Positions 2,124-61,660 of a DNA stretch of 64,000 nt are shown piece after piece. The number at the start of each line of letters is the position of its first letter. Position 1 is the first letter of the stretch. The stretch comes from Rhodocyclales bacterium (GTDB lineage: Bacteria > Pseudomonadota > Gammaproteobacteria > Burkholderiales > Rhodocyclaceae), in the NCBI GenBank assembly GCA_016214145.1, contig JACRPA010000002.1, positions 1 through 64,000 of the forward strand. The letters run 5' to 3'. Position numbers and translations under genes: made by a program. The notes beneath the pieces are model-generated. The model was not told the DNA's origin. It was given only the letters and a program-made list of their open reading frames with translations, and searched no databases.

Positions 2124-2152
2124 GGAAAAGTCAGCTTGCGCAGGACGGCGAG
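2124..2152 (+). repeat. Dispersed 24-nt motif, copy 1 (intergenic)
   Basis: AAAGTCAGCT, 8 bases, ACGGCG, preceded by GG and followed by AG. Compared with the consensus AAAGTCAGTC-N8-ACGGCG it has two changes. It lies between intI and the Phd/RelE pair, the only copy outside a coding region. See the finding on this motif. Confidence 0.6.
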
Positions 2153-2194
2153 TTGGTCTATTTTATGACCATTATTAAGCCCTAATTAGAGCCC

Positions 2195-2440
2195 ATGGAA
2201 AAAGTCTACGCAGACGCCTCGGTGAGCGTCACCGACCTGAAGAAGAATCCCACGGCCGTGATAGAGCAGGCGGAGGGCTTCCCGGTCGCCATCCTCAACC
2301 ACAACAAGCCGGCAGCCTACCTGGTGCCGGCTGCGTCGTTCGAGCTGCTGATGGACAAGTTGGAGGATGTCGAGCTGGCGGTGCTGGTGCGAAGCCGCCA
2401 GAAAGAGCGCAAGATCAAGGTCGCGCTCGATGACCTATAG
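2195..2440 (+). CDS. Antitoxin, Phd/YefM (StbD-like) family
   Basis: At 81 aa, with the N-terminal Phd/YefM fold that binds DNA as a dimer (SVTDLKKNPTAVIEQAEGFPVAIL), followed by PAAYLVPAASFELLMDKLED and a basic C-terminal tail that would wrap the toxin. It overlaps the toxin gene by 11 bases (toxin ATG at 2430), indicating translational coupling. It should neutralise the downstream RelE-type RNase and repress the shared promoter. A small palindrome CTAATTAG (2182-2189), just before the ATG, is a candidate operator core. The pair lies directly downstream of intI; such pairs are common in and near chromosomal integrons. Confidence 0.85.
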   Translation: MEKVYADASVSVTDLKKNPTAVIEQAEGFPVAILNHNKPAAYLVPAASFELLMDKLEDVELAVLVRSRQKERKIKVALDDL

Positions 2441-2714
2441 CCTGGCCTTCCGCGAATCGGCGCTCAAGGAATGGAAGAAGCTCGATCCGCCGATCCGGGA
2501 GCAGTTCAAGAAGAAACTGGCCGAGCGACTTGAGCGCCCCCGCGTCGAGTCGGCCCGTCTGTCGGGCATGCCGGATTGCTACAAGATCAAGCTGAAGAGC
2601 GCCGGCTATCGGCTTGTCTATCAAGTCGAGGACAGGACGGTGACAGTCGTGGTGGTGGCCGTCGGCCGGCGAGAGCGCAACTTCGTGTACAAGATTGCCG
2701 TGAAGCGGGTCTGA
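2430..2714 (+). CDS. Toxin, RelE/StbE family mRNA interferase
   Basis: The protein has 94 aa from the ATG inside the antitoxin 3' end (MTYSLAFRESALKEWKKLD). A longer in-frame reading from 2367 would only add an Arg/Ser-rich translation of the antitoxin gene and is rejected. RelE features are ESALKEWKKLDPPIREQFKKKL, the central LSGMPDCYKIKLKSAGYRLVY and the C-terminal VVVVAVGRRERNFVYKIA. RelE-fold toxins cleave mRNA on the ribosome; here the basic and aromatic residues (R, K, Y near the C-terminus) are in place, so the toxin looks intact. Confidence 0.9.
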   Translation: MTYSLAFRESALKEWKKLDPPIREQFKKKLAERLERPRVESARLSGMPDCYKIKLKSAGYRLVYQVEDRTVTVVVVAVGRRERNFVYKIAVKRV

Positions 2715-2927
2715 GGGCTTGCACCGAACGAGCCGTCCTTCAGCTGGCCGGGAGTCCTTAAGCCCGCGACAGGGCGCGAGTTCCTTGCGCTGCCGTGTTG
2801 GCCCACGGCTCGATACTTCAGGCATGACTACCGACTTGGCAGAGGCATACGGGTCTTCCAAGGCCAAATCGCCGGCATTGCCTTCACGGCGCTATAGCGG
2901 GAAGATGGCGCTGTTGGAGGAGCTATC

Positions 2928-3779
2928 ATGAAAAAACTGGTTCTGGCCTTGGCATTGGTCCTGCTGGCCGGCGCGGCCCACGCCCAGCAGCAGCTGGAGA
3001 TCATCAACCTGAAGAGCCGCACGGCGGACCAGGTGCTGCCGCAGTTGCGGCCCTTCATCGAGCCGGGCGGCACGCTGTCCGGCATGAACAACCAGATCTT
3101 CATCCGCGCCTCCGACGCCAACCGGCGGCAGATCAGGGAGCTGCTCGCCGCCATCGACCGGCCGCCGCGCCGGCTGGTGATCTCGGTGCGGCAGGATGCG
3201 GACAGCGCGGCGAGCGCGCGCGGCGGCGAGGTGTCGGGCCGGGTGCGTTCGGGAGATGTTCGCATCGAGAGCCGCCGCACCGTTATCGGCGGTTCGGGGG
3301 TGGAGGTGCGTCGCGGCGACGACGTGGTGCGCGGCCAGGTTTACGATTCACGCAGTTCAGGCAGCGAGCGCGTCGCGCAGCAGGTGCAGGTGGTGGAGGG
3401 CGGCAAGGCGTACATCAACGTCGGCACGTCCGTGCCGGTGCCGCTGCGCCAGGTGATGATGACGCCGGGCGGCGCCGTCGTCTCCGACACGGTGGTGTAC
3501 CGCGACCTGGGCACCGGCTTCTCCGCCGAGCCGCAGCTTGCCGGCGACAACGTCACGCTGACCATCAGCCCGACGCACGACACGCCGGGCAGCCAAGGCC
3601 CGGGCAGCGCCAACGTGCAGCGCCTGACGACGACGGTGTCGGGGCGGCTGGGCGAGTGGATCGACCTCGGCGGATCGGTCGAGGAGCGCTCCGGCGAGGA
3701 AGCCGGCGCGCTGCGCTATTCCACGCGCGGCGGCAGCACGGGACGGCGCGTGCAGCTGAAGGTGGAGGAGTTGCCCTGA
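2928..3779 (+). CDS. Secretin-like periplasmic protein with an N1-type domain, 283 aa
   Basis: A signal peptide is clear (MKKLVLALALVLLAGAAHA, then QQQ). Residues 22-92 match the short N1/NolW-type domain of secretins (LEIINLKSRTADQVLPQLRPF ... IFIRASDANRRQIRELLAAIDRPPRRLVISV). Residues 150-220 resemble the start of a secretin core (VEGGKAYINVGTSVPVPLRQVMM ... LAGDNVTLTISPTHDTPG). The protein is too short to form a full secretin channel and no pilus or type II secretion gene is adjacent. It may be a periplasmic accessory or a reduced secretin. The start has a GGAGG-type site (ggaggagctatcATG). The 213 bases before it hold no other recognisable gene. Confidence 0.7.
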   Translation: MKKLVLALALVLLAGAAHAQQQLEIINLKSRTADQVLPQLRPFIEPGGTLSGMNNQIFIRASDANRRQIRELLAAIDRPPRRLVISVRQDADSAASARGGEVSGRVRSGDVRIESRRTVIGGSGVEVRRGDDVVRGQVYDSRSSGSERVAQQVQVVEGGKAYINVGTSVPVPLRQVMMTPGGAVVSDTVVYRDLGTGFSAEPQLAGDNVTLTISPTHDTPGSQGPGSANVQRLTTTVSGRLGEWIDLGGSVEERSGEEAGALRYSTRGGSTGRRVQLKVEELP

Positions 3780-3797
3780 TTCGCCTTGCGCGACCGG

Positions 3798-4256
3798 CTA
3801 TTTGTTGATATCGATCTTGTAGACGGCTTCGGTCTTGACCGCGTCGGATTTGGCAAGGTAGTAGCCGTCCGAGGTCTGGATAACATAGCGGCACCATTCT
3901 TCCGTCGGGTAGTTGCCCACCCACTCGATCAGGATGCAATAGCGGCCGTCGTTGGAGATATGCCATTTCCCTCTTGATGCGGACGCCGCCGTGCTCCTCG
4001 ACACCCCGGGATTCCGGTTCGAGGCGGACACGATGAATGCGCCACCCGATTCATTGGTCCAGTTGTGCTGCCAGCCGGACTTGGTCAGCCGGCTCATTTT
4101 CGCGCCGGGCAGCAGCTGGTTGAGCTCTTCGAGGGCCAGTTTTTTCGGATTTTTTCCGTCCAGGTCGCGCACGGTGAGCGCCGCTTCCTGGGCTGCGGCC
4201 GCCGGAACAAGAAGGCAGAAACAAGCAAAGCCAATCAGTGCATTCTGTCGGTTCAT
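3798..4256 (-). CDS. Small secreted protein, possibly DUF995-like, 152 aa
   Basis: The start at 4256 is chosen because GAGGAG precedes it at good spacing and it yields a signal peptide (MNRQNALIGFACFCLLVPAAAA). An upstream ATG at 4295 would add 13 residues without a ribosome site. The mature protein has LEELNQLLPGAKMSRL and a beta-rich middle (GWQHNWTNESGGAFIVSAS, GKWHISNDGRYCILIEW, EEWCRYVIQTSDGYYLAK) with two Cys that could form a disulfide. This pattern resembles DUF995-type periplasmic proteins. It is convergent with the secretin-like gene. The role is unknown. Confidence 0.7.
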   Translation of the reverse strand: MNRQNALIGFACFCLLVPAAAAQEAALTVRDLDGKNPKKLALEELNQLLPGAKMSRLTKSGWQHNWTNESGGAFIVSASNRNPGVSRSTAASASRGKWHISNDGRYCILIEWVGNYPTEEWCRYVIQTSDGYYLAKSDAVKTEAVYKIDINK

Positions 4257-4461
4257 GGTTGCTCCTCGAAATAACCTATGAATAGCCGGTGTCACGCTGA
4301 CGTCGAGCGTGCCCGGGCCGCTCGGGACAATGGCTTGACCATACTAGGCCTGCGCATGCCGTCTGGCAAGGCTGGCCATGCGAGCGGGTTAGCCCAATTG
4401 CATTTTGCCGGCCGATGCGAGCGGCTCGGGCAGGAAATGAAGGTCGGGCTGGATGTGATAT

Positions 4462-4498
4462 CCTTACCCTATAGTAAGGAAAGTGAATGGAGGTAAGG
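4462..4498. promoter_or_regulatory. Operator of the first AbrB/PIN pair
   Basis: CCTTAC (4462-4467) and GTAAGG (4474-4479) form an inverted repeat with a 6-base spacer. A third GTAAGG (4493-4498) lies between the ribosome site GGAGG (4489-4493) and the ATG at 4501. A -10-like TATAGT (4470-4475) sits inside the dyad. This fits autorepression by the antitoxin. The same half-site recurs before the second pair (5157-5169). Confidence 0.55.
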
Positions 4499-4500
4499 AC

Positions 4501-4746
4501 ATGGAAGCCACCCTCACCAGCAAGGGCCAGATCACCATCCCGAAGGCGGTGCGCGACTCGCTCAGGCTGCATGTCGGCGACCGCCTGGAATTCCTCGTCG
4601 ACCCGGACGGCTCGGTGCGCATGGTGCCGGCCACGAGACCGGTGACCGACCTGAAGGCGCTCCTGCCGCGGCCGGCGCGGGCGCTCAGCCTGGAGGAGAT
4701 CGACGCGGCGATCGCCGAGCGCGGCGCCCGGAAGAAGCGGCCGTGA
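4501..4746 (+). CDS. vapB: Antitoxin, AbrB/SpoVT (VapB) family
   Basis: At 81 aa, the swapped-hairpin AbrB domain is at residues 1-46 (MEATLTSKGQITIPKAVRDS ... GDRLEFLVDPDGSVRM), followed by a toxin-binding tail (ALSLEEIDAAIAERG). Start 4501 is preferred over 4483 because GGAGG stands 7 bases upstream. It overlaps the toxin by 4 bases (GTGA). It should bind its own operator at 4462-4498 and inactivate the PIN toxin that follows. Confidence 0.9.
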   Translation: MEATLTSKGQITIPKAVRDSLRLHVGDRLEFLVDPDGSVRMVPATRPVTDLKALLPRPARALSLEEIDAAIAERGARKKRP

Positions 4747-5141
4747 TCGGCCTCGACACCAACGTGCTGTTGCGCTACATCGTGCGCGACGACGCGGCGC
4801 AGGCCAAGGCCGCCAGCCGCCTCATCGAGGGCCGCTGCAGCAAGGACGCGCCCGGCCACGTCTCGCATGTCGTCCTCGCCGAGCTGGCCTGGGTGCTGGG
4901 GCGCGGCTACGGCTATGCCAAGGCGGAAGTGGTGAAGGTGCTGGCGGCCATACTTTCATCCGCCGAACTCAAGGTGCAGGAGTCGGCGCTCGCCTGGGCG
5001 GCGCTGCGCGCGTTCCAGGCCGGCCGGGCGGATTTTGCGGACTACCTGATCGGCGCGGTGAACGCATCCTGCGGCTGCGAGACGACCTGCACCTTAGACA
5101 AGCGCGCCGCCAAATCCGGCTGGCACAGCCTGGCGGGCTAA
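4743..5141 (+). CDS. vapC: Toxin, PIN-domain ribonuclease (VapC)
   Basis: At 132 aa with a GTG start coupled to vapB. The PIN acidic residues are visible: D5 in MIGLDTNVLLRY, E43 region in VLAELAWVLG, and the distal Asp in RADFADYLIGAVNASCGCETTCTLDKRA. VapC enzymes cut tRNA or rRNA in a metal-dependent way. The frame is complete and the toxin looks active. A second PIN pair follows 75 bases downstream. Confidence 0.92.
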   Translation: MIGLDTNVLLRYIVRDDAAQAKAASRLIEGRCSKDAPGHVSHVVLAELAWVLGRGYGYAKAEVVKVLAAILSSAELKVQESALAWAALRAFQAGRADFADYLIGAVNASCGCETTCTLDKRAAKSGWHSLAG

Positions 5142-5156
5142 TGGGCCAGCCGGTGT

Positions 5157-5169
5157 CTTACATGGTAAG
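5157..5169. promoter_or_regulatory. Operator of the second AbrB/PIN pair
   Basis: CTTAC-ATG-GTAAG is a perfect inverted repeat with the same half-site as the first pair but a spacer of 3 in place of 6. A -10-like TAGAAT follows 12 bases later (5182-5187). The shared half-site suggests that the two antitoxins could bind each other's promoters. Confidence 0.5.
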
Positions 5170-5216
5170 CCACGGCATGCTAGAATGAAGCCGTTCAACA
5201 GCCAGCGGAGTCGGCC

Positions 5217-5471
5217 ATGTCTTCGGTAACGGTTTCGGTGAAAGGCCAGGTGGTGCTGCCGGCGGACATCCGCCGCAAGCTCGGCATCGTCGGCGGCAGC
5301 CGGCTGGAAGTGGTGGCCTCGGAGGGGGGCGTGCTGCTGCGCCCCTTCAAGGGCAAGGCCTCGCGCGTCGAGGACGGCATCGGCCTGGTGCCCAATCCGG
5401 TCGGCCCGGCGCCGATCGAGGACATGGACGGCGGGCGGATTCTCGCCCGCTTCAAGGGGAAAGGCCTGTGA
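5217..5471 (+). CDS. vapB: Antitoxin, AbrB family (VapB)
   Basis: At 84 aa, residues 3-47 form the AbrB domain (VTVSVKGQVVLPADIRRKLGI ... GSRLEVVASEGGVLLRP). The tail (APIEDMDGGRILARFKGKGL) would contact the toxin. It is only moderately similar to the first antitoxin, so the pairs are not a recent duplication. It overlaps the next gene by 4 bases (GTGA). Confidence 0.9.
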   Translation: MSSVTVSVKGQVVLPADIRRKLGIVGGSRLEVVASEGGVLLRPFKGKASRVEDGIGLVPNPVGPAPIEDMDGGRILARFKGKGL

Positions 5472-5878
5472 TCGCCCTCGATACCAACGTCCTCGCCCGC
5501 TACTACGCCGTGCCGGGCCAGCCGTCCGAGGAGGCGGAGCAACTCCGGGCCGCCGCCTTGCTCGCCTCGGAGCGGGCGCTGTTCGTGCCGGTCACGGTGG
5601 CGCTGGAACTGGCCTGGGTGCTGATCGGCCGCTACGAATGCGATCCGCCGACCGTCGGCAAGGTGTTCGATCACCTGCTGTCGCTGCCCAACGTCACCAC
5701 CGAATCGGCCGCCGCGGTGGCGCAGGCGGCGGCATGGCATCGCAAGGGCCTGGACTTTGCCGATGCGCTGCATCTGGCCCGCAGCGGGCAGTGCACGGAA
5801 CTGGCCAGTTTCGACAAGAAACGCCTTGCCAACCGCGCCAGCCGGCTCGGCCTGAAGCCGGCCGTGCGCGTGCCGTAG
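5468..5878 (+). CDS. vapC: Toxin, PIN-domain ribonuclease (VapC)
   Basis: At 136 aa with a GTG start. Acidic PIN residues are visible in MIALDTNVLARYY (D5), VALELAWVLIGRYE and GLDFADALHLARS, with FDKKR near the end. It forms a type II toxin-antitoxin pair with the preceding AbrB protein. The arrangement and the signature AALELAWVL-like segment match the first pair, so both belong to the same VapBC subgroup. Confidence 0.92.
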   Translation: MIALDTNVLARYYAVPGQPSEEAEQLRAAALLASERALFVPVTVALELAWVLIGRYECDPPTVGKVFDHLLSLPNVTTESAAAVAQAAAWHRKGLDFADALHLARSGQCTELASFDKKRLANRASRLGLKPAVRVP

Positions 5879-5916: not shown

Positions 5917-6022
5917 TGTAGGTCGGGCTGTAGGTCGGGCTTCAGCCCGACAGCTGCGGTTGATCGGCAGCTCATGTCCCACGGGGATTTCCTTCGGTCA
6001 TCGGCCTGAAGGCCGACCTACG
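5917..6022. repeat. Intergenic palindrome family A (GTAGGTCGGGC), copy 1
   Basis: GTAGGTCGGGCTTCAGCCCGAC (5930-5951), with a partial duplicate of its first 12 bases just before it, is matched by an inverted copy ending GCCGACCTAC (to 6021). Each unit is itself palindromic. Other copies lie at 13486-13553 and 42220-42276. The structure is that of REP/BIME elements; no associated RAYT transposase gene is in the window. Confidence 0.8.
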
Positions 6023-8082: not shown

Positions 8083-10131
8083 ATGCGCTGGCCTGACCTC
8101 ATCGGCACGGTACGCGCCAAGCTGCTGCTGATCGTGCTGCTGCCGCCGGCGATCATGGTGCCGGCGCTGACCGGATTGCTGGTCTATTGGGGCGACGCCG
8201 CCTACGACAGGCTGCTGGTGTCGCGGGTCAGCGCCGAGATGATCACCGCCCACCAGTACATGGAGCGGGTGCTGGAGGCGAACGGCCGGGCTGTCGCCGG
8301 TTTCGCCGATTCGGCGCAGCTGGCGCGCGCCATGAGCAGGGGCGGCCTGCGTGAGCTGCTCAAGAAAACCGCGGCCGGCGAGAAGTTCGACTTCGTGCGC
8401 CTGCTCGACGCGGAGGGCCGCATCGTCGCCGCCAGCGGCGACACGCCGGCCGGCCGCTGGCAGGACTGGCCCGTGGTGCGCGAGGCCCTCGACGGCCGCA
8501 GCAGCGTGGCGATCGACATCTTCAATGCGGCGCAGCTCGCCGAGATCTCGCCGCAGCTGACCGAGCGGGCGCGGGTGCCGCTGGTGCCGACGCCGAACGC
8601 CGCGCCCGACCCGCGCAGCGAGGAGACCGGCGGCATGCTGATCCATGCCGCGGCGCCGGTGCACGGCGCCGACGGCCGGCTTGCCGGCGCGGTGGTGGCC
8701 GGCGTCATGCTCAACCACAACCTCGGCTTCGTCGACACCATCAACGACATCGTCTACCCCGAGGGCTCGCTGCCGCTCGGCAGCAAGGGCACTGCCACGC
8801 TGTTCCTCGGCGACGTGCGCATCGCCACCAATGTGCGCCTGTTCGGCGGCGATCGCGGAGAATCTGGAACGCGGGCGTTGGGCACCCGCGTCTCGCAGAC
8901 CGTGCGCGACGCGGTGCTGGGCGAGGGGCGCACCTGGCTCGACTCGGCCTTCGTGGTGAACGACTGGTACGTTTCCGGCTACGAGCCGGTGCTGGACAGT
9001 TACGGCAGGCGCGTCGGCATGCTCTATGTCGGCTACCTGGAAACGCCCTTCCGCGCCGTCAAGCGCAACATCCTGGGCGGCGTGATCGGCGTGATCCTCC
9101 TCGCCGCCCTGGTCAGCGTGCCGCTGCTGCTGTGGCGGGCGCGGCGCATCTTCGGCCCCCTGGAGCGCATGGACGCGACCATGGCGGCGGTGGAGGCGGG
9201 CGACGTCACGGCGCGCATCGGCGCGGTGGCCGGACGCGACGAGATCGCGCGCCTGGCCGAGCACTTCGACGTGCTGCTCGACACCCTGCACGAGCGCAAC
9301 GCCGAGCTGTCGCGCCTGAACACCGAGCTCGACTACAAGGTCATCGAGCGCACGCGCGAGCTGGCCCTGGCGCTGGAGGAGCTGCGCGCCGCGCAGAAGC
9401 AGCTGGTGCGCTCGGAGAAGCTGGCCGCCATCGGCCAGCTCACCGCCGGCGTGGCGCACGAGATCAACAATCCGATCGCCGTGATGCAGGGCAACCTCGA
9501 CCTGCTGCGCGAGGAGCTGGGCGCCGCGGCCGCGCCGGCGAGGAACGAGCTGCGCCTGCTCGACGAACAGATCCACCGCGTCCGCGTCATCGTCACCAAG
9601 CTGCTGCAGTTCGCCCGCCCGGACGAGTTCGCCGGCTATGTGGAAACGGTGGACGTGAATGCCGCCGTGGCCGACTGCCTGGTGCTGGTGCGCCACGAAC
9701 TGAAGAAGGGCGACATCGAGGTGGTGCAGGAACTGCGCGCCGCGTCGCCGGTGCATATCAACCGCAACGAGCTGCAGCAGGTGCTGATCAACCTCGCCGT
9801 CAACGCCGTGCATGCCATGGCCGGCGGCGGCCGCCTGACTTTCGTCACGGAGGGGTGGCAGAACAAGGGCGTGCGCATCGGGGTGCGCGACACCGGCGCG
9901 GGAATCCCGCCGGAGCACCTGGCGCGGGTGTTCGACCCCTTCTTCACGACGAAGAAGACGCACGGCACCGGGCTGGGACTTTCCATCTCGCTGGCCTTGA
10001 TAGAACGCTACGGCGGCACCATATCGGTGGACAGCCGCCCCGGCGAAGGCGCCGAATTCAGCGTCTTCCTGCTCGCCGAGCCGGTGTTCCGCGAGCAGGA
10101 AAACCTCGACACGATGGCGGCACATGATTGA
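8083..10131 (+). CDS. Membrane sensor histidine kinase, cache-HAMP-HisKA, orphan
   Basis: Start 8083 is preferred (GAGGA 6 bases upstream) over the in-frame ATG at 8065; this gives 682 aa. Order: TM1 (about 8-35), a periplasmic cache-like sensor of about 280 residues, TM2 (NILGGVIGVILLAALVSVPLLLW, about 325-348), HAMP (about 350-400), a short coiled coil, HisKA with H459 in GVAHEINNPIAV, and HATPase with DTGAGIPPEHLARVFDPFF and GTGLGLSISLAL. The H-box and ATPase type resemble NtrB-like kinases. No response regulator gene is nearby, so its partner must be encoded elsewhere. The signal is unknown. Confidence 0.92.
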   Translation: MRWPDLIGTVRAKLLLIVLLPPAIMVPALTGLLVYWGDAAYDRLLVSRVSAEMITAHQYMERVLEANGRAVAGFADSAQLARAMSRGGLRELLKKTAAGEKFDFVRLLDAEGRIVAASGDTPAGRWQDWPVVREALDGRSSVAIDIFNAAQLAEISPQLTERARVPLVPTPNAAPDPRSEETGGMLIHAAAPVHGADGRLAGAVVAGVMLNHNLGFVDTINDIVYPEGSLPLGSKGTATLFLGDVRIATNVRLFGGDRGESGTRALGTRVSQTVRDAVLGEGRTWLDSAFVVNDWYVSGYEPVLDSYGRRVGMLYVGYLETPFRAVKRNILGGVIGVILLAALVSVPLLLWRARRIFGPLERMDATMAAVEAGDVTARIGAVAGRDEIARLAEHFDVLLDTLHERNAELSRLNTELDYKVIERTRELALALEELRAAQKQLVRSEKLAAIGQLTAGVAHEINNPIAVMQGNLDLLREELGAAAAPARNELRLLDEQIHRVRVIVTKLLQFARPDEFAGYVETVDVNAAVADCLVLVRHELKKGDIEVVQELRAASPVHINRNELQQVLINLAVNAVHAMAGGGRLTFVTEGWQNKGVRIGVRDTGAGIPPEHLARVFDPFFTTKKTHGTGLGLSISLALIERYGGTISVDSRPGEGAEFSVFLLAEPVFREQENLDTMAAHD

Positions 10132-12268: not shown

Positions 12269-13474
12269 ATGAGCCTTTTATCCTACGACGAAGCACTGCA
12301 AAAACTCCTCGCCGCCGCCTGCCCGGTGGGCGACATCGAGGAAGTGGATACCGTGGCCGCCGCCGGCCGCACGCTGGCGCGCGCGCAGTCGAGCGGCATC
12401 GTGGTGCCGCCGCTGGACAACTCGGCCATGGACGGCTACGCGGTTCGCCTGGCGGACGTGCCCGCCGCAGGCACCAGGCTGCCGGTGTCGCAGCGCATTC
12501 CCGCCGGCAGCGTCGGCACGCCGCTCCAGCCCGGCACGGCGGCGCGCATCTTCACCGGCGCGCCGGTGCCGGCGGGAGCCGACGCGGTGGTGATGCAGGA
12601 GCTGTGCGAGCACGCCGAGGCGGGGGTGTTGATCAACCATGTGCCGCGCTTGGGCGAGAACATCCGCCGCGCCGGCGAGGACATCCAGGCCGGTTCGGCC
12701 ATCCTCGCCGCCGGCACGCGGCTCACGCCGCAGGACATCGGTCTGGCCGCCTCGGTCGGGCTGGCGAAGCTGCCGGTGTTCCGCCGGCTGCGCGTGGCGG
12801 TGTTCTTCACCGGCGACGAACTGGCCATGCCGGGCCAGCCGTTGCCGCCCGGCGGCATCTACAACTCCAACCGCTACACGCTGCGCGGGCTGCTCGCCGC
12901 GCTCGGCTGCGAGGTGCACGACCTCGGCATCGTGTCGGACAGCCTTGATGCGACGCGCGCCGCGCTGCGCGAGGCGGCCGCCGGCAGCGACGTCATCATC
13001 ACCAGCGGCGGCGTCTCGGTGGGGGAGGAGGACCACGTCAAGGCGGCGGTGCAGGCGGAGGGCGCGCTCGATCTGTGGAAGATCGCGATCAAACCGGGAA
13101 AACCGCTGGCCTTCGGAAAAGTCAGTCGCCGCAACACGGCGTTCATCGGCCTGCCGGGCAATCCGGTGTCGACCTTCGTCACCTTCCTCATGCTGGTGCG
13201 CCCCTTCCTGCTCGCCTGCCAGGGCGCGCGCGTCACCGTGCCGCGCGGCCTGATGATGCGCGCCGATTTCGACTGGCCGAAACCCGACCGGCGCCGCGAG
13301 TTCCTGCGCGTGCGCATCGGCAATGAGGGCGGCCTGGAGTTGTTCCCCAACCAGAGTTCGGGCGTGCTGACCTCCTGCGCCTGGGCCGACGGCCTGGTGG
13401 ACAATCCGCCGGCGCAGGCGGTGCAGCGCGGCGATCTGGTGCGCTTCATTCCTTTTTCCGAGTTGTTATACTGA
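12269..13474 (+). CDS. moeA: Molybdopterin molybdenumtransferase MoeA
   Basis: At 401 aa, normal for the family. The enzyme inserts molybdate into adenylated molybdopterin. Diagnostic segments are VVPPLDNSAMDGYAVR (about 45-61), the domain II PAGSVGTPLQPGTAARIFTGAPVPAGADAVVMQE, IIITSGGVSVGEEDHVK (about 247-262), and FIGLPGNPVSTFVTF. A dispersed 24-nt motif copy encodes the stretch GKVSRRNTAF just before FIGLPGNP, a position that is variable in the family. Start at the ATG at 12269. Confidence 0.95.
   Translation: MSLLSYDEALQKLLAAACPVGDIEEVDTVAAAGRTLARAQSSGIVVPPLDNSAMDGYAVRLADVPAAGTRLPVSQRIPAGSVGTPLQPGTAARIFTGAPVPAGADAVVMQELCEHAEAGVLINHVPRLGENIRRAGEDIQAGSAILAAGTRLTPQDIGLAASVGLAKLPVFRRLRVAVFFTGDELAMPGQPLPPGGIYNSNRYTLRGLLAALGCEVHDLGIVSDSLDATRAALREAAAGSDVIITSGGVSVGEEDHVKAAVQAEGALDLWKIAIKPGKPLAFGKVSRRNTAFIGLPGNPVSTFVTFLMLVRPFLLACQGARVTVPRGLMMRADFDWPKPDRRREFLRVRIGNEGGLELFPNQSSGVLTSCAWADGLVDNPPAQAVQRGDLVRFIPFSELLY
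13115..13141 (+). repeat. Dispersed 24-nt motif, copy 2 (in moeA)
   Basis: AAAGTCAGTC, 8 bases, ACGGCG, exact to the consensus in both blocks. It is read in the moeA frame as K-V-S-R-R-N-T-A, using the codon AGT, which is rare in these GC-rich genes. Confidence 0.7.
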
Positions 13475-13485: not shown

Positions 13486-13553
13486 GTAGGTCGGGCTTCA
13501 GCCCGACTTTGGCGGTTGATCAGCCGCCGTTGTCGGGCTGAAGCCCGACCTAC
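13486..13553. repeat. Intergenic palindrome family A, copy 2
   Basis: GTAGGTCGGGCTTCAGCCCG opens the left unit and the inverse unit ends CCCGACCTAC at 13553, with an inner pair GGCGGTTGATCAGCCGCC. It starts 12 bases after the moeA stop. A further CAGCCCGAC remnant (13553-13561) follows before moaD. Confidence 0.8.
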
Positions 13554-13576
13554 AGCCCGACTTGCGTGAGGTGCTT

Positions 13577-15045: not shown

Positions 15046-16665
15046 TCAATCCGTGACCGGCAGGAGCGTTTCCGCCGCTTGCGCCGGCCTGACCGGCCGC
15101 GCGGCCGACAATCCCATCGGTTCCGGCCGGAACAGGCGGGCATCCATCAGCTTCGGCGCCGCCGGCATGAACGGGCGGAAATCCATGCGGGCGAGGATGT
15201 CGCGCTCGAGGTCGATGCCCGGCGCGATCTCGACGAGTTCCAGGCCCTGCGCGCCGAGGCGGAAGACGCAGCGCTCGGTGACGTAGAGCACCGGCTGGCC
15301 GCGGCGCCGGGCGTTTTCGCCGCTGAAGGTGAGGTGCTCGACCCGGTTCACGAACTTGCGGACATTCCCCTCGCGCAGGATGTGCAGGCGGCCGTCGCGC
15401 AGCACGGTTTCCTGCGGGCCGGCGCTGAAGGTGCCGACGAAGACCACCTTGCGCGCCGACTGCGAGATGTTGATGAAGCCGCCGGCGCCGGCCAGGCGCG
15501 CGCCGAACTTGCTGACGTTGAGGTTGCCCTGGCGGTCGGCCTGGGCCAGGCCAAGGACGGCGATGTCCAGTCCGCCGCCGTCGTAGAAATCGAACTGGTA
15601 GGGCTGGTCGATGATCGCCTCGGCGTTGCTGGCGGCGCCGAAGTCGAGGCCGCCGGCGGGCACCCCGCCGATCACGCCGGGCTCCGCCGTCAGCGTCAGG
15701 GAATCAAGAAGTCCTTCCTCGTTGGCGACATCGGCGACGCCTTCGGGCATGCCGATGCCGAGGTTCACCACCTGGCCGGCGCGCAGTTCCAGGGCGGCGC
15801 GGCGGGCGATCACCTTGCGCAGCGACAGCGGCATTACCGGCAGGTGTTCCGCCGGCACGCGGATCTCGCCGGCGTAGGCCGGGTTGTAGGCGCAGCCGAA
15901 GGTCTGTGCGTGATGGGCGGGATCTTCGGCCAGCACCACGGCGTCGACCAGCACGCCGGGAATCTTCACCTGGCGCGGATTGAGGCTGCCGCGCGCGGCC
16001 AGGCGCTCCACCTGGACGATCACCCGGCCGCCGGAATTGCGCGCAGCCATGGCGATCGACAGCGCCTCCAGGGTCAGCGCCTCCTTCTCCATGGTGACGT
16101 TGCCGGCGGCATCGGCGGTGGTGCCGCGCAGGATGGCGACATCGATGGGGAAGGCCTTGTAGAACAGGTAGTCGCGCCCGCCGAGCCGGATCAGTTCGAC
16201 CAGTTCCTCCCGGCTGCGGGCATTGAGACTGCCGCCGCCATGGCGCGGATCGACGAAAGTGTCGAGGCCGATCGAGGAGAGGTGCCCCGGCTTGCCGGCG
16301 GCGATGTCGCGGAAGAGATGGCTGATGACGCCCTGCGGCAGGTTGTAGGCCTCGATGCGATTGTCGACGGCGAGCGCCTGCAGCTTCGGCACCAGGCCCC
16401 AGTGGCCGCCGATGACGCGGCGCACCAGCCCCTCGTGGCCGAAATGATTGAGCCCGCGCTCGCCGCCGTCGCCCTGGCCGGCGGCGTAGACCAAAGTCAG
16501 TCCGTGCAGCACGGCGGGCTCCTGGCGGAAGCGCTCTTCGACGGCGACGGCGATGCCCTCGGCGAAGCCGATGCCGACGAAGCCGGCGGTGGCGACGGTG
16601 TCGCCGGCGCGGATCAGCCGTGCCGCCTCGGCGGCGCTGGCGAGCTTTCCTTCAGAGCGTGGCAC
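15046..16665 (-). CDS. Acyl-CoA:acetate/propionate CoA-transferase (YdiF/Pct type)
   Basis: At 539 aa, a fused alpha-beta class I CoA-transferase. The N-terminal half has [18 protein letters not shown] and [24 protein letters not shown]; the second half has [20 protein letters not shown], the catalytic Glu (about E328 in [13 protein letters not shown]) and [19 protein letters not shown]. It moves CoA between short-chain acids. Its ATG overlaps the end of the SDR gene by 14 bases, so the two are coupled. A 24-nt motif copy lies antisense near its start (16493-16517, [11 protein letters not shown] segment). A terminator follows. Confidence 0.92.
16493..16517 (+). repeat. Dispersed 24-nt motif, copy 3 (antisense in CoA-transferase)
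   Basis: AAAGTCAGTC, 8 bases, ACGGCG on the plus strand, exact in both blocks. Read in the gene (minus strand) it encodes AVLHGLTL with the codon ACT. Confidence 0.7.
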
Positions 16666-21049: not shown

Positions 21050-23632
<2,583 letters not shown>

Positions 23633-37951: not shown

Positions 37952-38721
37952 ATCCCGGCGCGCTGATCGCCGACGACGAGCCGCTGCTGGCCGCCGATCT
38001 GAAACGGCGCATCGAGGCGCTCTGGCCGGAACTGGACATCCGCGCCGTCTGCCATGACGGACCCGATGCGCTGGCGCGCCTGGAGGCGGAGAAGCCCGAC
38101 GTCGCCTTTCTCGACATCCGCATGCCGGGCCTCACCGGGCTGGAGGTGGCGGCGCGCCTCGACTTTCCCTGCCATGTCGTCTTCGTCACGGCCTATGACC
38201 AGTATGCGGTGGAAGCCTTCGAGCGGGCGGCGGTCGACTATGTGCTGAAGCCGGCGGACGATGTGCGGCTGGCGAAAACGGTGGAAAGGCTGAAGCGCGC
38301 ACTGGACGGACCGTCCGATGCGGAGCGGGCCCGGCTGGCGGCGGCGATTGCGGAGGTGCTGGAAAAAGTCAGTCCCGGCAATACGGCGAAGCCGGCCTGG
38401 CTGAAGTGGATCCGCGCTTCGGTGGGCGACAGCGTGCGCCTGGTGCCGACCGAGGAGGTGCGCTACTTCCAGTCGGCCGACAAGTACACCAGCGTGGTCA
38501 CCGCGGCGGGCGAACTGCTCATCCGCACGCCGATCAGGGAGCTGATCGAACAGCTCGATCCGGAGGCGTTCTGGCAGGTGCATCGTGGCACCATCGTGAA
38601 CGCAAAGTTCGTCACCGCCGCACGCCACGACGAGAGCGGCCGCGTGCTGCTCAGCCTGCGCGACCGGCCGGAGACGGTCACGGTGAGCCGCGCCTACGCC
38701 CACCTGTTCAGGCAGATGTAG
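37948..38721 (+). CDS. LytTR-family response regulator
   Basis: At 257 aa. The receiver is at 1-120 with the phosphorylation Asp in KPDVAFLDIRMPGLTG (about D54) and K near 105. The linker holds a 24-nt motif copy (LEKVSPGNTAK). The LytTR DNA-binding domain is at about 150-255 (RLVPTEEVRYFQSADKYTSVVTAAGELLIRTPIRELIEQL ... FWQVHRGTIVN). The closest named relative is AlgR/LytR. It converges with selU and overlaps its end by 14 bases. Confidence 0.93.
   Translation: MNPGALIADDEPLLAADLKRRIEALWPELDIRAVCHDGPDALARLEAEKPDVAFLDIRMPGLTGLEVAARLDFPCHVVFVTAYDQYAVEAFERAAVDYVLKPADDVRLAKTVERLKRALDGPSDAERARLAAAIAEVLEKVSPGNTAKPAWLKWIRASVGDSVRLVPTEEVRYFQSADKYTSVVTAAGELLIRTPIRELIEQLDPEAFWQVHRGTIVNAKFVTAARHDESGRVLLSLRDRPETVTVSRAYAHLFRQM
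38361..38391 (+). repeat. Dispersed 24-nt motif, copy 5 (in LytTR regulator)
   Basis: AAAGTCAGTC, 8 bases, ACGGCG, exact, with GGAAA before and AAG after. It codes for K-V-S-P-G-N-T-A-K in the interdomain linker, almost the same peptide as in clpB, although the two proteins are unrelated. Confidence 0.75.
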
Positions 38722-39757
38722 CGAGGATCTGCGTCGCCAGCTTCGCCAGGCCGGCGGCCGAGAGATCGTCGGTGGCGAAGCGCGGCGCAGCGGCGAAATG
38801 CACGTAGTTCTTGCCCTGCGAGCGCCGGTAGAGCGGGTCGTAGTGCTGCGCCAGCAGTTCGCCCACCAGCGCCGGCCAGTCGCGCGCGTCGATCATATCG
38901 TTCCAGCGTGACAGTGTCTCGCCGCTCTGCAGTTCGCGCAGGCAGGCGAGCTTTTCCTTGAGGCTTGCCGGGTCGGCGAGGAAGTAGTCGTAGTCGCCGA
39001 TGAGGAAGGAGACGCGCGCCGCGTCGGTGGCCTCGATGCGCAGGCAGGGGCTGGCGCGCATGGATTCCAGCAGCGCGTCGGGCACCTGCAGCGCGCCGAT
39101 CCTGCGGCTTTCCGCCTCGACAAAGACCGGTTCGGAAAAAGTCAGTCTCCGCAGCACGGCGAGCAGGCGGCTCTCGAACATCTTCTGCGAGGGCTGCGTC
39201 TCATCGGGCAATCCTCCCAGCACTGAGCCCTTGTGCGCGGCCAGCGCTTCCAGGTCGAGCACCTGCGCGCCCTGCGCGGCGAGGGCTTCGAGCAGGCGGC
39301 TCTTGCCGCTGCCGGTGGCGCCGGTGATGACGCGGTAATTGAAGCGGCGCGGCAATTCGGCGAGTTCGACGACGACGTGGCGGCGCCAGGACTTGTAGCC
39401 GCCTTCGAGGGCGCAGGCATGCCAGCCGATCTGGCGCAGCACGTGCGTCATGGCGCCGCTGCGCTTGCCGCCGCGCCAGCAATACACCAATGGTTTCCAG
39501 TCGCGCGGCCGGTCGAGGAAGCGGCCCTCGACGTGCTCGGCGATGTGGCGGGCGACCAGCGCCGCGCCGAGCTTCTTGGCGGCGAAGGGCGATTCCTGCT
39601 TGTAGAGCGTGCCGACGCGGGCGCGCTCCTCGTCGGAGAGCACCGGGCAATTGACCGCTCCCGGAATATGGTCATCGGCGAATTCGGCGGGCGAGCGCAC
39701 GTCGATGATCTCGTCAAATTCGCCGAGCTGTGTTAGGTTTGCATTACCCAGTTTCAT
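38708..39757 (-). CDS. selU: tRNA 2-selenouridine synthase
   Basis: At 349 aa (also named mnmH/ybbB). The rhodanese domain carries the catalytic Cys93 (VYCWRGGKRSG), and the P-loop domain has GATGSGKS (146-153). It converts 5-substituted 2-thiouridine at tRNA position 34 to 2-selenouridine using selenophosphate. It is divergent from selD, the selenophosphate source, across a palindrome. Confidence 0.95.
   Translation of the reverse strand: MKLGNANLTQLGEFDEIIDVRSPAEFADDHIPGAVNCPVLSDEERARVGTLYKQESPFAAKKLGAALVARHIAEHVEGRFLDRPRDWKPLVYCWRGGKRSGAMTHVLRQIGWHACALEGGYKSWRRHVVVELAELPRRFNYRVITGATGSGKSRLLEALAAQGAQVLDLEALAAHKGSVLGGLPDETQPSQKMFESRLLAVLRRLTFSEPVFVEAESRRIGALQVPDALLESMRASPCLRIEATDAARVSFLIGDYDYFLADPASLKEKLACLRELQSGETLSRWNDMIDARDWPALVGELLAQHYDPLYRRSQGKNYVHFAAAPRFATDDLSAAGLAKLATQILATSA
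39134..39163 (+). repeat. Dispersed 24-nt motif, copy 6 (antisense in selU)
   Basis: GGAAA, then AAAGTCAGTC-like block (AAAGTCAGTC exact), 8 bases, ACGGCG, then AG. In the selU frame it encodes LAVLRRLTFSE with the unusual ACT and TTT codons. Confidence 0.75.
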
Positions 39758-42219: not shown

Positions 42220-42276
42220 GTAGGTCGGGCTTCAGCCCGACGACAGCGGCCATTGTCGGGCTGAAGCCCGACCTAC
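42220..42276. repeat. Intergenic palindrome family A, copy 3
   Basis: GTAGGTCGGGCTTCAGCCCG begins the left unit; the inverse unit ends GCCCGACCTAC at 42276. It starts 7 bases after the ybbA stop and overlaps the hpnE stop codon (42273-42275), so it fills the entire gap between the convergent genes. Confidence 0.85.
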
Positions 42277-44375: not shown

Positions 44376-45185
44376 TCACCCTACTACAGCATGGAGCAGG
44401 ATCTTCGGCCAGTCGCCGGCGGTAACGACCGGCCGTCGGCGGAATATGTCGCCTCTTGCGCGCTGCAGCTTGTCCAGCACGCGAAAGCCGCTGGCGACGA
44501 TCAGCCGCAGTTCGAAGCCGATGCGTCCGGGCAGTTCATGCACCAGCGGGCTGCCGGCCGCCATCATGCCGCGGGCGCGGTCGATCTGGAAATCCATCAT
44601 GGCCGCCCAGGCGGCGTCCCAGCGGCCCTCGGCGATCTGGGCCTCCGCGATGCCGAAGCGCGCCAGTTCGTCCTGCGGCAGGTAGACGCGGCCCTTCTGC
44701 CAGTCGAGCGCCACATCCTGCCAGTGGTTGATGAGCTGCAGGCTGCTGCAGACGCCGTCCGACAGGGACTGACTTTCGGGATTGTCGTTGCCGTAGAGAT
44801 GCAATAGCAGCCGGCCGATGGGATCGGCCGAGCGGCGGCAGTAGTCCATCAATTCACCAAAGTCGGCGTAGCGTTTTTTCACCACATCCTGGCTGAAGGC
44901 GTCGAGCAGGTCGCGGAACAGGGACAGCGGCAGCCGGTGCTCCGCGATGGCCGGCCGCAGGCGCAGGAAGACCGGGTCCTGCGTCGGGCGGCCGGCTTCG
45001 ATGGCATCCAGTTCGGCCCGGTAGCGCGCGAGGCCGTCGAGGCGCTCCTGGTCGGAGAGGGCGCCTTCATCGGCGATGTCGTCGGCGCTGCGGGCGAAGG
45101 CGTAGATGGCCGCCACCGGCTCGCGCAGCCGGGCGGGCAGCAGGAAGGAGGCGACGGGGAAGTTTTCGTAATGATCGATTGACAT
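44376..45185 (-). CDS. hpnC: Hydroxysqualene synthase HpnC
   Basis: At 269 aa. Asp-rich motif ARSADDIADEG; the second region is LINHWQDVALDWQKGRVYLP. It turns presqualene diphosphate into hydroxysqualene. It is the first gene of the squalene operon, which is enough for a hopanoid precursor; the cyclase shc is not in the window. A 24-nt motif copy sits in its middle (NPESQSLSDGV). Confidence 0.93.
   Translation of the reverse strand: MSIDHYENFPVASFLLPARLREPVAAIYAFARSADDIADEGALSDQERLDGLARYRAELDAIEAGRPTQDPVFLRLRPAIAEHRLPLSLFRDLLDAFSQDVVKKRYADFGELMDYCRRSADPIGRLLLHLYGNDNPESQSLSDGVCSSLQLINHWQDVALDWQKGRVYLPQDELARFGIAEAQIAEGRWDAAWAAMMDFQIDRARGMMAAGSPLVHELPGRIGFELRLIVASGFRVLDKLQRARGDIFRRRPVVTAGDWPKILLHAVVG
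44753..44779 (-). repeat. Dispersed 24-nt motif, copy 7 (in hpnC)
   Basis: Minus strand AAAGTCAGTC, 8 bases, ACGGCG, with CG before the first block. This copy is read in a different codon phase (E-S-Q-S-L-S-D-G) from the other genic copies, so the constraint is at DNA level. Confidence 0.7.
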
Positions 45186-58206: not shown

Positions 58207-59642
58207 TGCCGATCGTCCTGTGGACCGACGCCCTCGTCTTCCTGCTGATCGCCTGCGCGATCGGCTCGGGGGTTTACGTCAGCCGCCGCGAATACCTGCT
58301 GGCGTCGTGGCGGCGCGTCGGCGAGAGCCGCGCCGGCATGGCGGCGCTGACGGTGCTGGCGGCCTTCATCCTGGTCGGCCTGCTCGACTCCCTGCACTAC
58401 CGGCCGCGCCTGGAAGCCGTGGCCGGCCAATCCGCCAACGGCTTCGGCACCGAAGTGCGCAGCGCGCTCGACGTGCTCCTGCTGCCGCTGAAGGCCGCCA
58501 CCGAAAAGACCTATTCCGCGCCGCTGGCCACCCATCTGTATGCCAGGGAAACCGTGGAGTTGCCGGACGGCACGCAGGCACGGGTGTTTCCGCGGCTGAA
58601 GCACGGCGGCGTGCATCTCAAGGATCCCGCGCAGGACCGGGGCCGCGACGTGGCCAGGCACATCCTGCGCGGGCTCGTCCTCGCCGTACTGGCGGGACTG
58701 ACTTTTGCGGCGATCGCGCTGCAGGCGGCCGCCGTACGCTGGGGCGTGCGCTGGCCGGCGGCCTGGCGCCGCATCCGGCGCGGCGAGACGCGCTTCGCCT
58801 GGAACGCGGTGCTGGCCACGCTGGCCGTTCTCCTGCTGCTGGCGGGTCCCGTCGTCTCGCTCGCCGGCGGCTACCACGTCTTCGGCACCGACAAGGTCGG
58901 CCAGGACGTGCTCTATCTCACCCTGAAGAGCATCCGCACCGGGCTGGTCATCGGCACCATCACCACGCTGGCCATGCTGCCCTTCGCGGTGGCGCTGGGC
59001 ATCGTCGCCGGCTACCTCGGCGGCTGGGTGGACGACGTCATCCAGTACCTCTACACGACGCTGAACTCGATCCCCGGCGTGCTGCTCATCGCCGCCTCGG
59101 TGCTGATGATGCAGGTGGTGATCGACACGCATCCGGACTGGTTCGCCACTTCCGCCCAGCGCGCCGATGCGCGCCTGCTGGCGCTGTGCCTGATCCTCGG
59201 CGTGACCAGCTGGACGGGGCTGTGCCGCCTGCTGCGCGCCGAGACGCTCAAGCTGCGCGAGCTGGAGTACGTGCAGGCGGCGCAAGCCTTCGGCGCGTCG
59301 GCTTCGCGCATCATGGGCCGCCACATCCTGCCCAACGTCATGCATATCGTGCTGATCGCGGTGGTGATGGATTTCTCCGGCCTGGTGCTGGCCGAGGCGG
59401 TGCTGTCCTACATCGGCATCGGCGTCGACCCGAGCACCATCAGCTTCGGCACCATGATCAACACCGCACGCCTCGAACTGGCGCGCGAGCCGGTCGTCTG
59501 GTGGTCGCTGGTGGCCGCCTTCGCCTTCATGTTCGTCCTGGTGCTGGCGGCCAACCTGTTCTCGGATTCCGTGCGCGATGCCTTCGATCCGCGCATCGCC
59601 GGCCGTCGCATCGCTCCCGCCGCACAGGGGCAAGCCGCATGA
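58206..59642 (+). CDS. Peptide ABC transporter permease (DppC/YejE type)
   Basis: At 478 aa, longer than DppC (300) or YejE (341). The N-terminal 180 residues hold two or three extra hydrophobic segments and a periplasmic loop (about 60-150). The core permease follows from about 215 (VFGTDKVGQDVLYLTLKSIRTGL ... GIVAGYLGGWVDDVIQYLYTTLNSIPGVLL, EAA loop YVQAAQAFGASASRIMGRHILPNVMHIVLI). The stop of the first permease overlaps the ATG by one base. A 24-nt motif copy is antisense at 58680-58708. Confidence 0.9.
   Translation: MPIVLWTDALVFLLIACAIGSGVYVSRREYLLASWRRVGESRAGMAALTVLAAFILVGLLDSLHYRPRLEAVAGQSANGFGTEVRSALDVLLLPLKAATEKTYSAPLATHLYARETVELPDGTQARVFPRLKHGGVHLKDPAQDRGRDVARHILRGLVLAVLAGLTFAAIALQAAAVRWGVRWPAAWRRIRRGETRFAWNAVLATLAVLLLLAGPVVSLAGGYHVFGTDKVGQDVLYLTLKSIRTGLVIGTITTLAMLPFAVALGIVAGYLGGWVDDVIQYLYTTLNSIPGVLLIAASVLMMQVVIDTHPDWFATSAQRADARLLALCLILGVTSWTGLCRLLRAETLKLRELEYVQAAQAFGASASRIMGRHILPNVMHIVLIAVVMDFSGLVLAEAVLSYIGIGVDPSTISFGTMINTARLELAREPVVWWSLVAAFAFMFVLVLAANLFSDSVRDAFDPRIAGRRIAPAAQGQAA
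58680..58708 (-). repeat. Dispersed 24-nt motif, copy 8 (antisense in permease)
   Basis: Minus strand AAAGTCAGTC, 8 bases, ACGGCG, exact. In the permease frame it reads LAVLAGLTFAA, with the same ACT TTT codons and phase as the antisense copy in selU. Confidence 0.75.
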
Positions 59643-61660
59643 GCCTGTTGCGCGTCGAAGGCTTGCGCACTTCCCTGACGAGCGCCGCCGGGATTGTGCG
59701 CGCGGTCGACGAGGTGTCGTTCGAGGTCGCCGCGGGGGAGACCTTCGCCCTGCTGGGCGAGTCCGGCTGCGGCAAGTCGATGACGGCGCTCTCGCTGATG
59801 CGCCTGCTGCCCGACGCCGGCGCAAACGTCGGCGGCCGCGTGCTGCTGGACGGGCGCGACCTGCTGGCGCTGTCCGAGGCGGAGATGCGCGGCGTGCGCG
59901 GCCGCGAGATGGCGATGATCTTCCAGGAGCCCGCCACCAGCCTGAATCCGGTGCTCAGCGTCGGCCGGCAGATCGTCGAGGTGCTGGAACGGCACACGAC
60001 GACGCAAGGCGCGGCGGCGCGCCGACGCGCCCTGGAGCTCGTCGACGCGGTCGGCATTCCCGATCCGGCGCGGCGCCTCGACGAGTACCCCTTCCAGCTC
60101 TCGGGCGGGATGAAGCAGCGCGTCATGATCGCCATGGCGCTGGCCGGCGATCCCCGCTTGCTCATCGCCGACGAGCCGACCACCGCGCTCGACGTCACGA
60201 TCCAGGCGCAGGTGCTTGAACTGCTCGGCCAGCTGCAGCGCGATCGTGGCATGGGCATGCTGCTGATCAGCCACGACCTCGGCATCGTCTCGCAACTGGC
60301 GCAGCGGGTCGGCGTCATGTACGCCGGCGAGCTGGTGGAGGTGGCCGACCGCCAGACATTCTTCGCGTCTCCGCGCCATCCCTATTCGCGCAAGCTGTTC
60401 GCCGCCCTGCCGCGACCGGCGCGGTGCGGCGGCGCCCTGGAAACCATTCCGGGCAGCGTCCCGCCGCTGACGACGATTTTCACTTGCTGCCGCTTCGCCG
60501 ATCGCTGTCCGAGCGCCTGGGCGCGCTGCCGGGACGAGGTGCCGGCCTGGCATGCGACAACGGACGGCCATGCGGTGCGCTGCCATCTTTACGACCAGAG
60601 GGCGGGGATCGGGAACCAGGAAGAAGGAAGTAGGAGCCAGATTGCTGGCGATCAAGTCGCCGGATCGCGGGCAAGCCCGCTCCTACAGGGCGAAGCTCCT
60701 TTGCTGGAAGTGGCCGACCTGAAAATGCATTTCCCCATCCGCAAGGGCGTTTTCAAGCGGGTCGCCGGGCAGGTCAGGGCGGTCGACGGCGTATCGCTGG
60801 GACTGACTTTGGGACGCACGCTGGCGCTGGTGGGGGAGTCGGGCTGCGGCAAGACGACGGCCGGCAAGGCTATCCTGCAGCTCCTGCGGCCGACCGGCGG
60901 CAGCGTGCGCTTCGGCGGCGAGGAACTCACCTCCCTGCCGCAGGGACGGCTACGCGCGCTGCGGGCGGAAATGCAGATCGTCTTCCAGGATCCGTACGGC
61001 TCGCTTGACCCGCGCATGCGGGTGGGCGACATCATCGAGGAGGGCATGGCCGCCCTGGGCACGGCATCCGATCGCGCGGCGCGGGACAGGCGGATCGATG
61101 AGCAACTGGAACGGGTCGGTCTATCGGCCGGGATGCGCGGGCGCTATCCGCACGAGTTTTCGGGCGGGCAGCGGCAACGCATCGCCATCGCCCGCGCGCT
61201 GGCGGTCGAACCCCGCCTGCTGGTCTGCGACGAGCCGACCAGCGCCCTCGATGTCTCGGTGCAGGCGCAGATCCTCAACCTGCTGAAGGAGCTGCAGGCC
61301 TCGCTCGGCCTTGCTTACCTGTTCATCACGCACAACATCGCCGTGGTGGAGTATCTGGCCCACGAGGTGGCGGTGATGTACCTCGGCCGCATCGTCGAGC
61401 GCGGAACGGTGGAGGAAATCCTGCGCGACCCGAAGCATCCCTACACCGAAGCGCTGCTGTCCGCCGTGCCCCGCATCGAGGCTGAAGCGGGACGTCCCGT
61501 CATCGTCCTCAGGGGCGACATGCCTTCGCCCGCCAATCCGCCCCCGGGGTGCCACTTCCACCCGCGCTGTCCGCGCGCCATGCCGGAATGCGCCGTCACT
61601 TTTCCATCGGCAACACGCTTGAGCGAATCGCGCAGCGTGCACTGCCATCTCTATCGATAA
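59639..61660 (+). CDS. Fused double ABC ATPase for peptide import (YejF/DppD-DppF type)
   Basis: At 673 aa, two ATPase units in one chain. Unit 1: Walker A GESGCGKS (about 40), signature LSGGMKQRVMIAMAL, Walker B LLIADEPTTALD, and an oligopeptide C-terminal Cys motif (CCRFADRCPSAWARC). Unit 2: GESGCGKT (about 399), FSGGQRQRIAIARAL, LLVCDEPTSALD, and CHFHPRCPRAMPEC. The linker, residues about 331-350, is the in-frame translation of a family B palindrome (60630-60687). The gene overlaps the permease stop by 4 bases. Confidence 0.93.
   Translation: MSLLRVEGLRTSLTSAAGIVRAVDEVSFEVAAGETFALLGESGCGKSMTALSLMRLLPDAGANVGGRVLLDGRDLLALSEAEMRGVRGREMAMIFQEPATSLNPVLSVGRQIVEVLERHTTTQGAAARRRALELVDAVGIPDPARRLDEYPFQLSGGMKQRVMIAMALAGDPRLLIADEPTTALDVTIQAQVLELLGQLQRDRGMGMLLISHDLGIVSQLAQRVGVMYAGELVEVADRQTFFASPRHPYSRKLFAALPRPARCGGALETIPGSVPPLTTIFTCCRFADRCPSAWARCRDEVPAWHATTDGHAVRCHLYDQRAGIGNQEEGSRSQIAGDQVAGSRASPLLQGEAPLLEVADLKMHFPIRKGVFKRVAGQVRAVDGVSLGLTLGRTLALVGESGCGKTTAGKAILQLLRPTGGSVRFGGEELTSLPQGRLRALRAEMQIVFQDPYGSLDPRMRVGDIIEEGMAALGTASDRAARDRRIDEQLERVGLSAGMRGRYPHEFSGGQRQRIAIARALAVEPRLLVCDEPTSALDVSVQAQILNLLKELQASLGLAYLFITHNIAVVEYLAHEVAVMYLGRIVERGTVEEILRDPKHPYTEALLSAVPRIEAEAGRPVIVLRGDMPSPANPPPGCHFHPRCPRAMPECAVTFPSATRLSESRSVHCHLYR
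60630..60687. repeat. Family B palindrome inside a coding region, copy 5
   Basis: GTAGGAGCCAGATTGCTGGC begins and GCCCGCTCCTACA ends the element, as in the intergenic copies. It lies between the two ATPase units and is read without a stop as SRSQIAGDQVAGSRASPLLQ. Length is compatible with the frame. Confidence 0.85.
60785..60812 (-). repeat. Dispersed 24-nt motif, copy 9 (antisense in fused ATPase)
   Basis: Minus strand AAAGTCAGTC, 8 bases, ACGCCG (one change from ACGGCG). It encodes DGVSLGLTLGR near the start of the second ATPase unit. Weakest of the genic copies. Confidence 0.5.

Follow-up and report, generated by a model that had tools for sequence, protein, structure and literature searches.

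The Neisseriaceae and the Pasteurellaceae are the only families for which recognition of self-DNA by sequence tags is on record, according to a 2025 paper (PMC12616744), and the same two families were named in 2020 (PMC7811141). In PMC3630211 and PMC7371117, the DNA uptake sequences (DUS) of the Neisseriaceae, whose receptor is ComP, appear as dispersed copies in and between genes, falling into dialects with a common core; in PMC7811141, the uptake signal sequence (USS) of the Pasteurellaceae appears as a long site present genome-wide, with a strong core and weaker segments. We consider here a dispersed motif that resembles both in these very features, AAAGTCAGTC-N8-ACGGCG, noticed in a stretch of 64,000 nucleotides from a Rhodocyclales bacterium of the family Rhodocyclaceae (assembly GCA_016214145.1, contig JACRPA010000002.1, positions 1 to 64,000), hereafter the window. 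It is present there in nine copies, seven of them exact and the other two with 1 and 2 mismatches. We argue that selection acts on this DNA as such, and that the motif is probably a self-DNA uptake sequence, with a putative pilus-borne receptor and with biased recombination that would build its sites and keep them.

The resemblance has its limits. The site spans 24-25 bp, unlike the 10-12 bp of the neisserial DUS. The reverse complement of one of its dialects, that of the genus labelled g9, starts with CGCCGTC and has GCCGTC in common with the DUS 10-mer GCCGTCTGAA, which is possibly a coincidence. The Haemophilus-type sequence Hin-USS, AAGTGCGGT, and the present motif both begin AAAGT or AAGT; the second and third blocks of the motif are GC-rich, whereas the USS has AT tracts and belongs to an unrelated gammaproteobacterial family. 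Among the matches listed for the open-access literature, nothing relevant was found on the motif strings or on uptake sequences in Rhodocyclaceae, and a word search of the Desulfobacillus genome paper (PMC8402940) met neither competence, natural transformation, pili nor repeat.

Enrichment in the genome and in the window

For the original prediction to stand, the motif must recur through the genome in excess of what codon usage would produce, and this is borne out. In the genome of the window (G000; 3,422,993 bases in 12 contigs) 567 copies (275 on the forward strand, 292 on the reverse) are found when up to 2 mismatches are allowed, where the backward pattern has 4, and two congeners carry 601 (G010) and 600 (G073), a density of about one copy per 5 kb. 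A 955 kb sample of G010, in which the overlapping stretches L215 and L216 were counted once or excluded, holds 186 sites (122 exact, 38 with 1 mismatch, 26 with 2), distributed as 97 on the plus and 89 on the minus strand. Synonymous codons were then exchanged within each of 953 coding sequences (905 kb of G010 samples and window, delimited with a simple gene finder of our own), a procedure that probably held the shuffled values up, because it keeps the encoded peptides. Even so, the 75 exact coding copies of the G010 sample compare with a mean of 0.25 over 20 shuffles, and the 122 coding copies at up to 2 mismatches with 15.1. In the coding sequence of the window, 7 exact copies stand against a mean of 0; at up to 2 mismatches there are 8, where the 20 shuffles average 1.15 and never exceed 2. 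Shuffling the dinucleotides of the window gives a mean of 0.42 matches at up to 3 mismatches, where 10 are observed, and none of 100 shuffles reaches that number; the tenth match, at 9819 with 3 mismatches, is itself chance-like. In 400 kb of G010, 46 of 78 copies are coding, in both orientations, two of the frames accounting for 33 of them, while 23 are intergenic and 9 lie across a gene edge, the noncoding share of the sequence being 12%. Chance is excluded as the origin of the enrichment.

The nine copies first reported in the window are all present, 0 to 4 bases from where they had been placed; gene calling puts eight of them in coding sequence as claimed, and the host families also held on checking, SelU being a rhodanese-domain protein and HpnC a squalene/phytoene synthase. 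The intergenic copy (2127..2150, plus strand) is the one with 2 mismatches, and a near-identical variant of it is kept in G010 and G073. Exact copies on the plus strand lie in moeA (13118..13141, peptide KVSRRNTA), in clpB (22601..22624, KVSPRDTA) and in a LytTR response regulator gene (38365..38388, at codon 140, between its two domains), and antisense in a CoA-transferase gene (16493..16516, AVLHGLT, with a counterpart in another genus) and in the rhodanese-domain, SelU-like gene (39138..39161). On the minus strand, an exact copy runs in sense, in another reading frame, through the HpnC-like squalene/phytoene synthase gene (44753..44776), a further one is antisense in an ABC permease gene (58682..58705), and the copy with 1 mismatch is antisense in an ABC ATPase gene (60787..60810). 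The peptide patterns that had been read from these copies, KVSxxxTA in MoeA, ClpB and the LytTR protein and AVLxxLT in three antisense copies, are as described.

Selection on the DNA itself

When two 200 kb blocks of G010 and G073 are compared, 12 of the 13 alignable G010 copies are kept and 11 of the 13 orthologous sites align without gaps, 24 of 37 G010 sites being unalignable. Five pairings of G000, G010 and G073, which keep only the sites fully aligned across their length (14/35, 11/35, 16/28, 16/186 and 15/186), give an identity of 96-99% for the 16 block positions, 82-84% for the spacer and 77-81% for the flanks. The congener G121 behaves otherwise: at the orthologous places no copy is present, the block positions are about 66% identical and the flanks 81-88% (7 distinct sites in 10 rows of 2, 5 and 3). 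As the blocks differ more than the flanks there, we may take it that the host proteins tolerate change at these places, and that the blocks are conserved only in genomes that make use of the motif. Loss of the motif in G121 is the simpler account of this pattern, and it would seem preferable to the view that this genome never had it.

The comparison can be extended across genera, where an alignment spanning the site was obtained for 9 of 116 site queries. In 4 of these 9 the matching position carries a copy in the dialect of the other genus, against 1 of 43 random places. Both clpB and moeA illustrate this, G008 having at the shared place a copy in its own dialect; in the clpB linker it has AAAGTCGGTGCTGGCGGGACGGC where the window has AAAGTCAGTCCCCGGGATACGGC. 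Together with the shuffles and with retention in congeners, the identity of the blocks strongly supports selection on the DNA itself, as the original prediction had suggested.

Anatomy of the site and its dialects

The motif had been described as two blocks separated by a free spacer of eight bases. The blocks stand, and the free spacer does not: the middle is partly conserved in the genus of the window (C at 12, C at 15, purines at 16-17) and more strongly fixed in other genera. The logos show no clear conservation beyond positions 0 to 25, so that the site does not belong to a longer repeat. Consensus sequences were obtained from one relaxed starting pattern, refined genome by genome (position weight matrix, raised threshold), and yield dialects in eight genera and a weak one in a ninth, g23. 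In g1, the genus of the window, represented by G010, the dialect is AAAGTCAGTC.C..Crr.ACGGCG; it is AAAAGTCGGyGCTGGCGrGACGGCG in g9, rrAGTCGGCGCTGGCG..ACGGCG in g2, AAA.TCGGCGCTGGCrGsACGGCAC in g19, near AAAGTCGGCGCTGGCG..ACGGCG in g38, g46 and g64, and AAAGTCAGysryGGCGr..CGCCG in g66. The refined profiles find 140-250 copies per Mb in the dialect sets and, reversed, 0 in every set; they give 3 weak matches in 100 kb of G121 and 0 in 240 kb of six motif-less genomes. The information content amounts to about 24-31 bits per site in most genera (21.5 from the 11 hits of the window alone).

Distribution

A survey of 395 Rhodocyclaceae genomes, with the relaxed pattern at up to 1 mismatch, identifies 68 rich genomes (at least 100 copies, counted by hand), which belong to 8 of the 68 genera of the family: 13 of 16 genomes in g1, 20/22 in g2, 16/19 in g19, 4/4 in g46, 9/9 in g64, 4/6 in g66, and the single genomes of g9 and g38. 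The representative of g23, G023, has 89 copies. Rich genera also contain poor genomes, two of them 98-99% complete (G121 with 3 copies and G242 with 25) and five 80-87% complete (G307 with 23, G258 with 43, G247 with 0, G178 with 6 and G224 with 4). A de novo search for 9-mers in 100 kb of G121 revealed no replacement motif. Among 399 genomes sampled from the order the maximum in any other family is 14 copies (G474), and the scattered copies outside the family often read AAAGTCGGCGCTGGCGRGACGGCG. Several contigs of G412, from family f19, have 10 places near the motif; because nine of these are letter-identical (AAAGTCAGTCCCCGCAAAACTGCG), they are probably a repeat element, or else belong to another system.

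Repeats of other kinds also occur in these genomes. The window contains palindromic repeats akin to repetitive extragenic palindromes (REP), of GTAGGTCGGGCTTCAGCCCGACA type, at 5922-5960, 13499-13570 and 42233-42275, and similar words, CCCAACCTA/GAAGCCCAACA, rank with the most enriched ones of G121. In 400 kb of G010 the top enriched 9-mer besides the motif words is CCCTCTCCC/GGGAGAGGG (30 occurrences where 1.1 are expected), found also in G121 and in G055.

An uptake sequence as the likely function

Of the four candidates named at the outset, uptake sequence, protein-binding site, Chi and KOPS (FtsK orienting polar sequences), the first fits best. Enrichment, dialects, neutrality of orientation, scarcity of short gaps and conservation in permissive places are features of DUS and USS, and it is on this account that uptake is proposed. 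As for the gaps, those under 500 bp are rarer than simulated in G010 (5 against 17.1), and those under 1000 bp do not differ significantly (26 against 32.0). Going beyond selection on DNA, we infer uptake, receptor and drive as follows. A surface receptor, presumably a type IV (minor) pilin, would bind double-stranded DNA bearing the 24-25 bp site, and DNA of the same dialect would be preferentially taken up and recombined. Such a bias would enrich the site in permissive places, linkers and intergenic DNA, and keep it intact there; it would also space the sites out and leave them rare in foreign DNA. Divergence of the receptor would create the dialects of the genera, and loss of the uptake system would let the copies decay, which is how we read G121.

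Parts of the machinery that such a scenario calls upon are widespread. ComEC is present in 48 of 50 genomes and DprA in 43 of 44 at E≤0.001, 41 of them over the cut-off, G178 having only a weak partial match. G010 has a pilE-fimT-pilV-pilW-pilX-pilY1-like minor-pilin operon (names judged by eye). A prepilin N-terminal profile gives 10-17 matches per genome in all 12 searched and does not discriminate. ComEA-like proteins above the TIGR00426 cut-off occur in motif-rich G148 and G064 as in motif-less G018, G057 and G005. As markers of the genomes that have the motif, ComP_DUS, pilin charge, ComEC and DprA were all considered, and none discriminates.

A series of observations weighs against uptake, and must be set out together. 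No ComP-like receptor was singled out, in contrast with the DUS system: 59 of 60 genomes, motif-bearing or not, have a match to the ComP_DUS family (PF16732), the one in G010 being the leading pilin of a minor-pilin operon of ordinary appearance, and pilin charge, judged by eye, does not separate motif-bearing from motif-less groups. The DprA profile has no match in G073, which is motif-rich and complete, nor has the DprA of G010, taken as query, in the parts of G073 searched; motif-rich G001 has a weak partial match only. Standalone ComEA appears in none of nine g1 genomes with TIGR00426 and a protein query, nor in five of these with HHH_3, the sensitivity of these searches being in doubt because they matched a frame of about 800 aa, which we take to be Tex-like, in many genomes, G000 and G010 being among those where they did not. 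G121 lacks the motif despite having ComEC, DprA and pilin. The arrangement of the sites is also unlike that of DUS: pairs on opposite strands less than 300 bp apart, which commonly though not universally act as terminators among uptake sequences, are absent from the 955 kb of G010, from 200 kb of G073 and from the window, four of the 5 G010 gaps under 500 bp separate copies on the same strand, and one site per about 5 kb compares with one per 400-1100 bp in Neisseria. Identity within 4 kb of a site exceeds that beyond 4 kb by 0.4-4 percentage points, a confounded difference of which we make no use. Some viral sequences contain a dialect-like copy: the pattern AAAGTCRGTS-N8-ACGGCG, although it leaves the AAAGTCGGCG dialect uncovered, has 66 copies in 65 stretches of IMG/VR, some with dialect-like middles. 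Finally, no paper on transformation in these genera was found among the matches listed.

Other explanations

The main rival, in our view unlikely, is that the sites bind a protein dispersed over the chromosome, for nucleoid association, condensation, segregation or occlusion, once per about 5 kb and in any orientation. A long conserved site, extending over the whole sampled chromosome without regard to orientation, with few short gaps and retained at orthologous places, is what such a protein would also produce. Its information content, however, equals or exceeds that required to find a site in a 3 Mb genome, and poor genomes within rich genera (G121, G247, G178, G224) are odd for a housekeeping function. 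Sites are moreover fewer in GC-poor windows, from 93 per Mb in the lowest GC quintile to 316 in the highest (G010 sample and window), which again does not favour this rival.

A mark of self for a defence nuclease or methylase is much less probable. Type I methylase sites are bipartite, as the motif looks to be, and the dialects could track enzyme specificity; yet neither enrichment nor conservation in genes would be expected of restriction sites, and here the enrichment exceeds 100-fold (567 against 4) with conservation inside genes. Defence genes also turn over fast, whereas the motif is wide within eight genera.

A shade less probable again is a polar signal for DNA processing, either Chi-like, in recombination, or KOPS-like, in guidance of FtsK. 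KOPS and Chi are dispersed and over-represented, also inside genes, and the density of Chi in Escherichia coli resembles one motif per 5 kb or so, but both are far shorter than 24-25 bp. Polarity was hinted at by listed matches on the plus strand only over 892 kb of contig C3, a product of the listing itself; G010 shows mixed strands: over its 955 kb the best half-chromosome split reaches 58%, where permutations average 57% (p=0.28), and the strand of the sites correlates neither with GC skew nor with gene direction. In the absence of replichore polarity in this sampled congener, Chi and KOPS are not supported.

We hold it more doubtful still that a small mobile repeat, inserting in genes, left the copies as remnants or uses them as targets. 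Whether the segments are inserted or substituted had been raised from the start: the segment of moeA is 9 nt longer than in the relatives G023, G055 and G114, which have no copy at that place, while the orthologous sites align for the most part without gaps. In G083 (1,497-1,505 kb, L350-L351) a duplicated transposase segment carries the same variant of the motif at 1500590 and 1502243, so that a mobile element may carry some copies with it. Against an origin of this kind, no clear conservation extends beyond the site, copies occupy several frames and both strands, the blocks are maintained instead of decaying, and shared positions hold each genus's own dialect.

An artefact of chance, codons or peptides, which the two peptide patterns shared by coding copies might evoke, may be dismissed in view of the reversed pattern, the codon shuffles and the intergenic enrichment.

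Copies in possibly transferred DNA and in viral DNA

Three motif-poor genomes were inspected in part, with gene roles judged by eye from translations. Five of the six copies listed for G083 lie within 41 kb, with efflux and copper- or metal-type genes and transposases; four of eight copies of G055 are on one contig with nitrate-type genes; and those listed for G129 extend over 330 kb, the stretches read carrying metal-efflux and defence-like genes. Islands in Neisseriaceae keep the dialect of their donor, according to PMC7371117, and these partly clustered copies, in small number, recall such dialect-marked islands.

Among the viral stretches, contig L169 has two exact Desulfobacillus block copies on one strand, 428 bp apart; the other 64 stretches have one each.

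Significance

If the motif did not serve uptake, its length and its conservation within genes would suggest a chromosomal function not yet described. With slightly less assurance than we give to uptake as such, we would propose that the Rhodocyclaceae possess a third self-DNA uptake code, a three-block site of 24-25 bp with at least five genus dialects, probably read by a pilin and maintained through biased transformation among environmental bacteria that include an anammox-reactor species. The family would then be the third in the bacterial world with DNA-uptake tags, and its several dialects, together with the motif-poor relatives in the same genera, would make the evolution of codes and receptors testable by comparison. 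Natural competence and barriers to gene flow would be predicted in environmental bacteria such as Candidatus Desulfobacillus, and the motif would give a way to trace donor DNA.

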